Positions 23,946 to 26,364 of a stretch of 64,000 nt of DNA are shown piece after piece (position 1 is the stretch's first letter; the number at the start of each line of letters is the position of its first letter). This DNA is from Kutzneria kofuensis. GTDB taxonomy: Bacteria > Actinomycetota > Actinomycetes > Mycobacteriales > Pseudonocardiaceae. The notes below the pieces were generated by a model. The model was not told the DNA's origin, did no database searches, and saw only the letters and a program-made list of their open reading frames with translations. The position numbers and the translations under genes are program-made. The stretch lies in the NCBI RefSeq assembly GCF_014203355.1, contig NZ_JACHIR010000001.1, positions 5,458,038 through 5,522,037 on the forward strand, given 5' to 3'.

Positions 23946-23995
23946 GCACTCCCAGACGCTCACGAGGGACGTGGCGGCGGCTTCGTGAGTGACCC

Positions 23996-24038
23996 GAGGC
24001 GGGCTGGTCACCGGCAATCCGGTGGATCAGCCCGCCTC
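23996..24038. terminator. long hairpin between GH92 and caspase-like genes
   Basis: GAGGCGGGCTG...CACCGG pairs with CCGGTG...CAGCCCGCCTC around the loop CAAT, with a small internal bulge, giving about 17 base pairs. The right arm covers the last codons of the convergent caspase-like gene. It is a likely bidirectional terminator. Confidence 0.75.
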
Positions 24039-26201
24039 ACCGTGTTCGTGCCCGGCGGTGCTCAGGGAGGTGATCTCCCACAGCGGCCACAGCTTCACCG
24101 TGCCGTCCTGACCGGTACTGACGACGTATCGCCCGTCTGGACTGAACGCTACCGACGTCACCCAACCTAGGTGGCCCCGCAGGCAGGCGATCACGCGGCC
24201 GTCCGAGACATTCCACAGACGAACGGTGCCATCCCAACTGGAGCTCGCGATCGCCGTCCCGTCCGGATTGAATGCTATGGCAGTGACCACGTTCCGGTGG
24301 CCGGTCAGAACCTTGTGCTCCTTCCAATCGTCAGTACGCCACATCACGATGCTGCGTTCGGCTGTGCATCCGGCGAGCAGCGAACCGTCCGGAGAGAAGG
24401 CGATGAACTTGAACAACCCTGAACGCGGCGCCTTCAGCAGCTGTGATTCGTTCAGCGCTCTGTCCATAATGTGAATAGCGTTACCCCATGTTGCCGCAAG
24501 CAGGTGGCCGCCCGGGGCGAACGCCATGTCGTCGGAATGGTATTCGGGCCGAATTTGCGACGACTGTGCGACAGGTTTCCAGTCGCTGGTTCGCCACAGT
24601 GTGATGGGTGCATCTTGCGCTGAGGTTGCCAGCAATTCTCCATCCGGGCTGAACGCTGTCGTGTCCGCGTTGTAGGGTAGGGCGACGGCTTGCTTGCCAT
24701 TGGCGTGCCATATCTTTACGACGTTGCGACAGACGGTGGCCAGTAGAGTGCCATCGGGGCTAAAACTGAGCTGGTTCAGTGTGCCTCCGATCTTGAATCC
24801 GGCAACCGTCTTCCAGGTTTCTGTCGACCGCAGTGTGACCCCGGAAAAGTTAGCGGTGGCCAGTATTGAGCCGTCCGGGCTGAAGGTGGCCGTGCTAACG
24901 AATCTTTCCTTGGTTAGTGTTATGCTTCGGTCTTCTCGTCTGAGCGCGTACAGTCGCAGCAGCGGTATGCTGAACATGACCGTCACGAGGCCGAATCCGC
25001 CGAGCGTGATCGCGCTCGTCCAGGTCGGCGCAGTGAATTGCCAGATCAAGCAGCCCGCGGTCACGGAAAGGGTGCCGCCCTCATACGTCAACAAACGTCG
25101 AAACTGCGGTGGATACGGAGTGGAGACGCCCGGCGGCGGCGCGATTTGCGCCGGCTCGGTTTTCGATCGCGGAGGCTGTGCGGGCGACATGAGGAACTGC
25201 GCAGGTTGAGGATCGGGCGAGGCGGTGGAGGCACTCAGGGTGGCACGCGCGGCTTCGGCCAGTGGTTGGTTCGTGTCCTCACTCAGTTGGTGCAGCGTTT
25301 TCCGCGCGACTTCGTCGCCAAGGCTGGCCAGCTCGCCGAGTTCTTCGACGGCGGCCATACGGATGCGCGTCACGGTGCTGCGCAGCCCTTGCCTGATCTC
25401 GGCAGGCAGATCGGGATTGAGGCGGAGGCCGCGGTTGCTGTGTGCGATGTAGAGGTCGCCGACCAGTTGGACGCTGCGGGTCGGTGTCTGGTCCGGGGTG
25501 TTCTTCTTCACCTCGTCGTGCACAAAGACGTACAGTTCGTTGGCGTCGATGAAACCGTCGGCGTTGAGGTCGGCGGCTCCGGTACGCAGGCCGCGGACGA
25601 TGGCGTCGGTGAACACGGACGGTTGGGCGCTGCCGCGGACATGCGGGTCCGGGCCGCGTTCGAAGGCGTACTGGATGGCGGTGGACGCAGTCATCACGGC
25701 ACAGCCCCGGCCCGAGTCCGCGGTCAATTGCGCGACGACGTCCACGCTGCCCTCGGCCTTGGGGGCCCGTCCGGAGGGGAAAGCGCCGGAATAGCAGCAG
25801 TCCAGCCACAGCGCGGCCCGGCGGGCCTGGCTGTTGTCGATGAGCTCCCGCAGGAGGCTGGCGGCCACAGCGGTCGTGGGGAGTAGCTGGTGCTCAGTGT
25901 CGGTGGTGACCAGGTGCAGTTGGCCGGAGACATCCTTGACACCGTGACCGGACACGTAGCAGAGGATCATGTCGTCCCGCTCGGCCTCGTTGAACAGCCG
26001 GTTGAGCCGCCGCCGCACCTCGTCGGCGGACCGGTTGACGAGCGTCTCGACGGTGAAGCCGCCGATCTCGGGGTTCCGCAGCACGTCGGCGAGGGCTTGG
26101 GCATCCGCCTGGGGCGCCCGCAGCGCTCGGAAGGTCGGGTCCGCATGGGTGTCGGTCACGATGAGCAGCGCCGTCCGCCTGCCTGCCATGCCACCTGCCA
26201 T
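24027..26201 (-). CDS. caspase-like (C14) peptidase fused to membrane and WD40 domains
   Basis: 724 residues from ATG 26201 (an in-frame TTG at 26240 and ATG 26189 are alternatives). Residues about 5-245 form a caspase/metacaspase-like domain: His in YVSGHGVKD (H86) and Cys in DCCYSG (C136). Inside it DLNADGFIDANEL (about 211-223) matches a canonical EF-hand calcium loop. A helical repeat-like stretch (about 270-325) and a Pro-rich linker follow. Two hydrophobic segments lie at about 378-420, and at least six WD40-type repeats (TFSPDGS..., AFSPDGRYVVSTGQDGTVKLW) run to the C-terminus. The gene stands alone. Rare codons (ATA, AGA, CTA) appear in the WD40 half. A role as a regulated protease in cell death or defence is inference. 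Confidence 0.85.
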   Translation of the reverse strand: MAGGMAGRRTALLIVTDTHADPTFRALRAPQADAQALADVLRNPEIGGFTVETLVNRSADEVRRRLNRLFNEAERDDMILCYVSGHGVKDVSGQLHLVTTDTEHQLLPTTAVAASLLRELIDNSQARRAALWLDCCYSGAFPSGRAPKAEGSVDVVAQLTADSGRGCAVMTASTAIQYAFERGPDPHVRGSAQPSVFTDAIVRGLRTGAADLNADGFIDANELYVFVHDEVKKNTPDQTPTRSVQLVGDLYIAHSNRGLRLNPDLPAEIRQGLRSTVTRIRMAAVEELGELASLGDEVARKTLHQLSEDTNQPLAEAARATLSASTASPDPQPAQFLMSPAQPPRSKTEPAQIAPPPGVSTPYPPQFRRLLTYEGGTLSVTAGCLIWQFTAPTWTSAITLGGFGLVTVMFSIPLLRLYALRREDRSITLTKERFVSTATFSPDGSILATANFSGVTLRSTETWKTVAGFKIGGTLNQLSFSPDGTLLATVCRNVVKIWHANGKQAVALPYNADTTAFSPDGELLATSAQDAPITLWRTSDWKPVAQSSQIRPEYHSDDMAFAPGGHLLAATWGNAIHIMDRALNESQLLKAPRSGLFKFIAFSPDGSLLAGCTAERSIVMWRTDDWKEHKVLTGHRNVVTAIAFNPDGTAIASSSWDGTVRLWNVSDGRVIACLRGHLGWVTSVAFSPDGRYVVSTGQDGTVKLWPLWEITSLSTAGHEHGEAG

Positions 26202-26364
26202 TCGATACGACCGACGCGCCGTATCCAATCGATAGCGCAAGGTGCGCCGACCCTACAGCGAATCCCGTGCGGTGCACCCGATCGGTCTAATGGGGACCCT
26301 GACATATCTCCGGTGTTGCGGCGAAAGCCCGCCGCCGGATCCGGTGAGACCTAGCGTTCCCGCC

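Follow-up and report, generated by a model that had tools for sequence, protein, structure and literature searches.

What does the caspase-like gene of the soil actinobacterium Kutzneria kofuensis analyzed here encode, is the activity of its product set by calcium, and does it act alone? The gene lies in a 64,000-nucleotide stretch (hereafter the window) of a 10.4-Mb genome assembled in five contigs. An initial annotation had read its product as a solitary caspase-like protease anchored in the membrane, gated by calcium through an EF-hand loop, and controlled by a WD40 sensor.

Domain layout and predicted fold

The reading frame on the minus strand begins with an ATG at position 26201, stops at 24027-24029, and encodes a product of 724 amino acids (Table 1). 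Its N-terminal part was matched by the Pfam model PF00656 (55.3 bits, cutoff 21.4) and by the NCBIfam model NF047832 (caspase, EACC1-associated type; 164.9 bits against a cutoff of 140, and 168.5 bits in the genome search), and it adopted a caspase fold in the AlphaFold2 model, which bears out the earlier call of a caspase-type protease. The His (SGHG, H86) and Cys (DCCYSG, C136) of the dyad were present in the translation as described there. With this dyad and the modeled fold the protein has the features of a C14-type peptidase, and its activity is predicted. The Asp preceding Cys136 presumably directs cleavage after Arg or Lys, as in meta- and paracaspases.

Table 1. Features of the caspase gene and its locus (positions in the window).
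Feature	Position	Strand	Basis
Whole gene, 724 aa: caspase, HEAT-like linker, membrane segment, WD40 propeller	24027..26201	-	ORF, Pfam, NCBIfam
Caspase domain, ~residues 9-254 (NF047832 10-233; PF00656 9-250)	25440..26177	-	profile matches, AlphaFold2 fold
His86 codon, catalytic, SGHG	25944..25946	-	translation; family column
Cys136 codon, catalytic, DCCYSG	25794..25796	-	translation; family column
EF-hand loop, residues 211-222, DLNADGFIDANE; ligands D211, N213, D215, E222	25536..25571	-	translation, alignment, AlphaFold2
HEAT-like repeats, two, residues 267-326	25224..25403	-	four model helices; PF13646 sub-threshold
Probable membrane hairpin, ~residues 377-415	24957..25073	-	hydropathy; WD40 relatives of L207
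Seven-bladed WD40 propeller, ~residues 426-710	24072..24926	-	blade motifs; Pfam WD40
Variable cassette between GH92 and ABC transporter genes; flanks common to five sister genomes	24042..26270		genome comparison

A structure prediction was run on residues 1-335 with 71 alignment rows (pLDDT 86.7, pTM 0.82) and gave a caspase fold with the loop in an EF-hand layout between helices; a single-sequence run of the whole protein was unusable (pLDDT 34.3), and the model thus excludes the tail. Confidence near Cys136 was middling (72 for the block 131-140, 44 for 141-150), with the segments 138-145, 147-150, and 177-182 below a pLDDT of 50. The best Foldseek match of the model in the PDB was the paracaspase MALT1 (E-value 4.1e-11, 16% identity), which also made up the first 26 of the 50 rows listed, followed by metacaspases, caspases, and a Geobacter protein amid more MALT1; 287 matches had an E-value of at most 0.001. 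A PDB sequence search with the caspase part returned one chance match only (E-value 0.19). MALT1 is not known to have an EF-hand, and its partners are different ones.

Between the caspase domain and the membrane segment lies a HEAT-like stretch that is absent from the initial annotation; its blocks reached pLDDT values of 85-96, and PF13646 scored 17.2-21.7 bits on it, under the cutoff of 27.7. Two hydrophobic segments had been reported. The second is strong (residues 397-415, Kyte-Doolittle 1.94) and provides a clear membrane segment, but the first is weak (residues 380-398, 0.88); two hydrophobic segments each were seen by eye in the two WD40 relatives of locus L207 (2.39 and 1.24 in the one measured whole). 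The reported WD40 repeats were recovered as seven blade motifs beginning at residues 439, 479, 516, 560, 601, 643, and 685 and as a Pfam WD40 match of 122.7 bits (cutoff 27). The third-position GC of linker and WD40 together was 0.71 vs. 0.88 in the caspase part, which hints, suggestively only, at a different origin. The family assignment and this anatomy are nearly certain.

The EF-hand loop and its distribution in the family

The motif DLNADGFIDANEL occupies residues 211-223, and the protein has a single match to the EF pattern; when residues 1-260 were shuffled 20,000 times, 27 of the shuffled sequences contained one. The loop has the EF-hand layout, with ligands at positions 1, 3, 5, and 12, Gly at position 6, a hydrophobic residue at position 8, and flanking helices. 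In the AlphaFold2 model, helix 196-207 is followed by the loop, strand 217-219, and helix 220-234 (blocks 201-230 at 91-97), which places the EF-hand layout between two helices in the second half of the caspase fold. The EF-hand loop that had been proposed inside the protease domain is thus upheld as a helix-loop-helix whose ligand positions are kept in most loop-bearing rows of the family. No Pfam EF-hand model exceeded its own cutoff for the window protein; PF13202 scored 17.3-19.5 bits on the loop (cutoff 25.9) and matched 42 of the 71 rows of set A2 at an E-value of at most 0.1.

For the distribution of the loop, 207 loci were reduced to 183 distinct caspase domains and, after rows shorter than 190 residues or without the dyad column were dropped, to 179 full rows including that of the window. 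Of these, 79 rows came from a pattern-based locus search that required the Cys and kept the best 80 of 563 by closeness to a seed in which EF-bearing sequences predominate, and the remaining 100 came from genome searches. The canonical loop was present in 115 of the 179 rows, a set that leans toward EF-bearing members (74 of the 79 pattern-search rows vs. 41 of the 100 genome-search rows). The dyad was intact in 178 rows, the odd one (L196) showing R and L in place of the dyad. The initial annotation had asked whether loop and dyad are conserved together: the dyad is kept almost throughout, but the loop is not tied to it. Among the 178 dyad-intact rows, 115 had all four ligands, 8 had three, 13 had two, 22 had one, and 20 had none; at least one ligand was hence missing in 63 rows, and 42 rows kept none or one. 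In an earlier 115-row set, loop positions 1, 3, 5, 6, 8, 12, and 13 were conserved, 4 and 7 variable, and 9-11 intermediate, a pattern like that of EF-hands.

Under a relaxed rule, by which three ligands and the Gly suffice, 123 of the 179 rows carried the loop. On a FastTree phylogeny with local supports, built without the loop columns and to be read with a long-branch warning for outlying rows, the relaxed EF state required 10 changes. The window protein fell within a 13-row branch (local support 100) nested in a 15-row branch (support 95), every member of which carries the loop under this rule (in two of them Gly occupies position 3). A search of 72,556 plasmid records turned up caspase relatives on 76, and one of 50,697 phage records on none. 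In the plasmid copies inspected (4 of the 15 listed) the loop was present in Nonomuraea, Nostoc, and Rhizobium and not in Caballeronia, and it was present in one of five viral-contig copies (L239) and in an archaeal copy (L094).

Three of these loci deserve separate mention. The archaeal EF-bearing caspase (L094, Candidatus Methanocrinis natronophilus) has an EACC1 match upstream. The 48-kb plasmid p1 of Nonomuraea gerenzanensis (NZ_CP084059.1, L244) carries an EF-bearing caspase gene with an overlapping WD40 gene and an adjoining integrase gene, and also encodes an EACC1-like gene (61.6 bits by the EACC1 profile). The EF-bearing caspase of L239, an IMG/VR contig classed as viral, lies in a 1453-aa frame preceded by an EACC1 match that is weak (28 bits) and of biased composition.

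With one or more ligands missing in 63 of the 178 dyad-intact rows, calcium cannot be needed for catalysis throughout the family, and because ligands are mostly lost all-or-nothing while the dyad is kept, the loop appears to be an all-or-nothing option that the dyad does not need. The conservation pattern and this mode of loss are the strongest point for calcium; the EF-hand of the window protein is predicted with fair confidence to bind calcium, and regulation of the protease by calcium is put forward tentatively.

Since the dyad is kept in loop-less relatives, calcium may be structural only: the EF-hand would be always filled or would brace a turn in a non-regulatory manner, and activation would proceed solely via EACC1 or the tail. 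This would suit the single, unpaired EF-hand of the window protein, as regulatory EF-hands are usually paired, and also the shorter or unrelated turn found at the loop site of loop-less relatives with an intact dyad. A review, in the passages used here, describes prokaryotic orthocaspases as calcium-independent and active without calcium (PMC5756287), from which a working in-fold EF-hand would differ. The mostly all-or-nothing ligand loss and the retention of the pattern in distant taxa fit either role, however, and we consider a purely structural ion somewhat doubtful. If calcium gating is instead correct and the EF-hand works in a large share of this family, one of the principal groups of predicted conflict caspases in bacteria, calcium entry would be a directly testable trigger of bacterial regulated death, with relatives that have an intact dyad and no loop as natural controls.

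Tail exchange at a variable locus

The gene is flanked by GH92 and ABC transporter genes, which delimit the same spot in six of seven Kutzneria genomes including that of the window; the seventh, G003, had no ABC match. It holds a caspase-membrane-WD40 gene in the window's genome, a caspase-WD40 gene in G002 (744), and a caspase gene with a TNT NADase domain (PF14021, 104 bits) in G006 (CA-103260). An unrelated DUF2786/DUF7168 gene occupies it in G005 (L228), which marks the site as a variable insertion spot, and in G001 and G004 only ~310 bp separate the GH92 and ABC query matches, too short a gap for a caspase gene. The caspase is therefore absent or replaced in three of the five examinable sister genomes. 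Flank similarity ends at ~24041-24053 and restarts at ~26269-26278 (G001 and G005), or at 23989 and 26350 in the most distant genome, G004.

The caspase part shared 72% identity with the window's in G002 and 69% in G006 (76% between those two). The WD40 part of the window protein shared 35% identity with that of the syntenic G002 and 36% with that of another genus. An import of the WD40 part while the caspase stayed in place is thus unsupported, since fast divergence explains these values equally well, and the WD40/TNT difference is the only clear exchange at this locus. Clade members end in WD40, in TNT, or, following a membrane helix, in a PBP-like domain or a short tail.

Across 136 rows with complete tails (similarity taken as an E-value of 1e-3), tails were similar in 91 of 91 pairs with at least 90% caspase identity, 25 of 29 at 80-90%, 85 of 126 at 70-80%, 76 of 164 at 60-70%, 83 of 1054 at 50-60%, and 60 of 7716 below. 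As the caspases diverge, their tails diverge faster still, and the segment after the HEAT-like linker is exchangeable. The protein therefore has the constant N-terminal caspase and exchangeable C-terminal domain of the systems described by Kaur et al. (2020).

These observations bear on the WD40 sensor that had been proposed: the propeller is there, but the sensor role is doubtful because sister proteins carry other modules in its place, including the TNT NADase at the same locus. The caspase may instead be a constant trigger and the C-terminal part a payload freed by self-cleavage, the WD40 propeller then being an effector scaffold. The tails at one locus, WD40 in G002 and the window's genome but TNT NADase in G006, would agree with this, as would the steep fall in tail similarity between the pairs at or above 90% caspase identity and those at 50-60%. 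On the other side, some clade tails are receptor-like, such as the PBP-like domain after a membrane helix in L046, which suits sensing, and a propeller is not known to kill by itself; we rate this explanation below even odds.

The neighboring genes encode a LacI regulator, GH92, an ABC ATPase and permease, a DUF3817 protein, a MarR regulator, a thiamine-binding protein, an HTH_67 protein, and SnoaL-like proteins, with no mobile gene among the neighbors tested. PADLOC, run on the window caspase and nine window neighbors, reported no system and single-component matches only. The window protein itself matched a caspase model (27.8 bits) and, through its WD40 part, a HEAT-ARM model. Among the nine neighbors the strongest match was that of the ABC ATPase to mad3 (E-value 1.6e-32), with further matches to AriA and other ATPase models and weak ones of the LacI and MarR proteins; these read as generic, and the mad3 match as one to the shared ATPase part. 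The statement that no defence gene accompanies the caspase agrees with the lack of a clear one among the neighbors tested by Pfam and PADLOC. A housekeeping or developmental protease, e.g., in mycelial differentiation, would sit well with ordinary flanking genes and with the lack of mobile genes and PADLOC systems among the neighbors tested, but is quite unlikely given the absence or replacement in three of five sister genomes, the exchangeable tails, and the plasmid-borne relatives, which fit conflict genes better. For a role of the window protein in defence or cell death the odds are about even.

Candidate EACC1 partner, proposed mechanism, and precedents

The cited passages of Kaur et al. 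(2020; PMC7159879) describe a two-gene system in which an EACC1 membrane gene lies 5′ of a caspase gene, the latter combining a constant caspase with up to 50 alternative C-terminal domains; in their proposal EACC1 is the sensor, and the caspase cleaves itself to release the effector. No EACC1 gene adjoins the window gene: the genome has three PF19953 matches, all of them outside the window. An EACC1 profile, seeded on six of seven ORFs called PF19953 by Pfam, had no match in L001, L038, and L039. With EACC1 genes classed as same-strand (at most 700 nt upstream) or divergent (within 1000 nt), the 115 canonical-loop rows comprised 82 with a same-strand gene, 5 with a divergent one, 3 with one elsewhere in the stretch, 24 with none, and 1 with too little sequence for a call; the corresponding counts for the other 64 rows were 32, 2, 1, and 29. 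The idea that EF-bearing caspases form a branch apart from EACC1-linked ones is refuted.

None of the 15 rows of the window clade had a same-strand upstream EACC1. Five of its loci (L006, L041, L042, L045, and L011) carry a distinct, divergent type 105-232 nt from the caspase domain, with PF19953 scores of 28.6, 29.5, 24.8, 20.3, and 25.5 bits (four of five over the cutoff of 23.6). A profile of these five gave one strong match each in six of the seven Kutzneria genomes (133-149 bits) and none in G003 (4.7-Mb genome). In the window's genome the match is a stand-alone gene at G000:C1:4900883-4901230 (L237, L250), ~581 kb from the caspase. Its 3′ side shares 85-90% DNA similarity with the copies L248, L251, L252, and L253, and L249 is 71% similar over 346 bp. 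No family caspase was found near the stand-alone copies in six 3.3-kb stretches or in 9 kb around that of the window's genome. The latter is followed by a universal-stress-protein-like reading frame (by eye). In another genus of the family, L207:3252-8395 holds tandem caspase-membrane-WD40 genes with a divergent EACC1 before the first.

Loss of EACC1 in the window clade is ruled out by the divergent genes of five loci and the stand-alone copy. The description of the gene as solitary is therefore right in that no EACC1 adjoins it, but the protein belongs to the named family NF047832, and a clade-type EACC1 exists elsewhere in the genome. The initial annotation had left a one-gene system or a distant partner as options, and the latter gains support because the head-to-head EACC1 type of five clade loci has a stand-alone copy here, ~581 kb away, a candidate partner in trans. 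Stand-alone copies also occur in G001, G004, and G005, genomes without a caspase at the site, so that the copy need not be the partner of the window caspase. The partner is probably unlinked; that EACC1 works in trans with the window caspase we put at slightly under an even chance.

The reading we prefer, with a probability of about 0.4, is a calcium-responsive, membrane-tethered death or defence protease. A latent protease would be held at the inner membrane face with caspase and propeller both in the cytosol, as the hairpin has basic residues on both outer sides. The triggers would be EACC1 from a distant gene, ligand binding or clustering via the WD40 propeller, and a cytosolic calcium rise at envelope breach or phage entry that fills the EF-hand. 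These inputs would bring the second half of the caspase into order and turn the protease on; it would then cut after Arg or Lys, both in cellular proteins and within its own linker, and the cell would be stopped or killed. A wider version is unlikely in full: many EACC1-type caspases of Actinomycetota, together with cyanobacterial, Rhizobium, and archaeal relatives, would carry an EF-hand calcium switch, and the Kutzneria gene would be a calcium-gated, membrane-tethered death-protease cassette with unlinked EACC1. The EF-hand would have arisen between two helices in the second half of the caspase fold, at a place apart from the calcium sites reported in eukaryotic metacaspases, EACC1 would have turned head-to-head in the window clade before becoming unlinked in Kutzneria, and a single-gene cassette of caspase and exchangeable tail would move into a variable chromosomal spot.

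The EACC1-associated caspase family, with its predicted self-defence proteases, is already known. The window protein resembles its members in the NF047832 match over cutoff, the variable C-terminus, the membrane segment, the actinobacterial host, and the presence of EACC1 in the genome, but differs from the arrangement in the cited passages (PMC7159879) in that its EACC1 is not adjacent and those of its clade mates are divergent rather than same-strand and 5′. It is set apart by the EF-hand inside the fold, the unlinked EACC1, and the tail replaced at one locus in a sister species; the unlinking and the single-locus exchange show how such a system may come apart and change its output. The term EF-hand does not occur in the consulted text of Kaur et al. 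(2020; PMC7159879) or of the 2021 follow-up, and no report of an EF-hand inside EACC1-type caspases was found in a search confined to the open PMC literature.

Fusions of bacterial caspases to WD40, like the window protein, are on record, WD40 being the commonest partner domain (73 of 671 sequences) in the cited part of Asplund-Samuelsson et al. (2012; PMC3501461), where neither EF-hand nor calcium is mentioned. An EF-hand motif is described for seven archaeal orthocaspases in the cited part of Klemencic et al. (2019; PMC6426788); these proteins share with the window protein such a motif in a prokaryotic caspase homolog, but theirs is among extra N- or C-terminal domains, whereas the window loop lies inside the caspase fold. 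The same part states that prokaryotic metacaspases mostly retain an Asp that matters for calcium in the type III metacaspases of eukaryotes. Eukaryotic calcium-dependent metacaspases share the His/Cys dyad, the caspase fold, and a link to calcium with the window protein, but are set apart by description, with calcium sites in p20 and the p10 280-loop and no EF-hand (PMC5756287, in the passages used).

Two further caspase loci of the NF047832-type family are present in the window's genome. An EACC1 domain opens a 569-aa frame at G000:C1:8638837 (L236), with no family caspase in the 9 kb examined. The third family caspase (G000:C1:7296349-7297205, L235) is split over two frames and is therefore probably interrupted.
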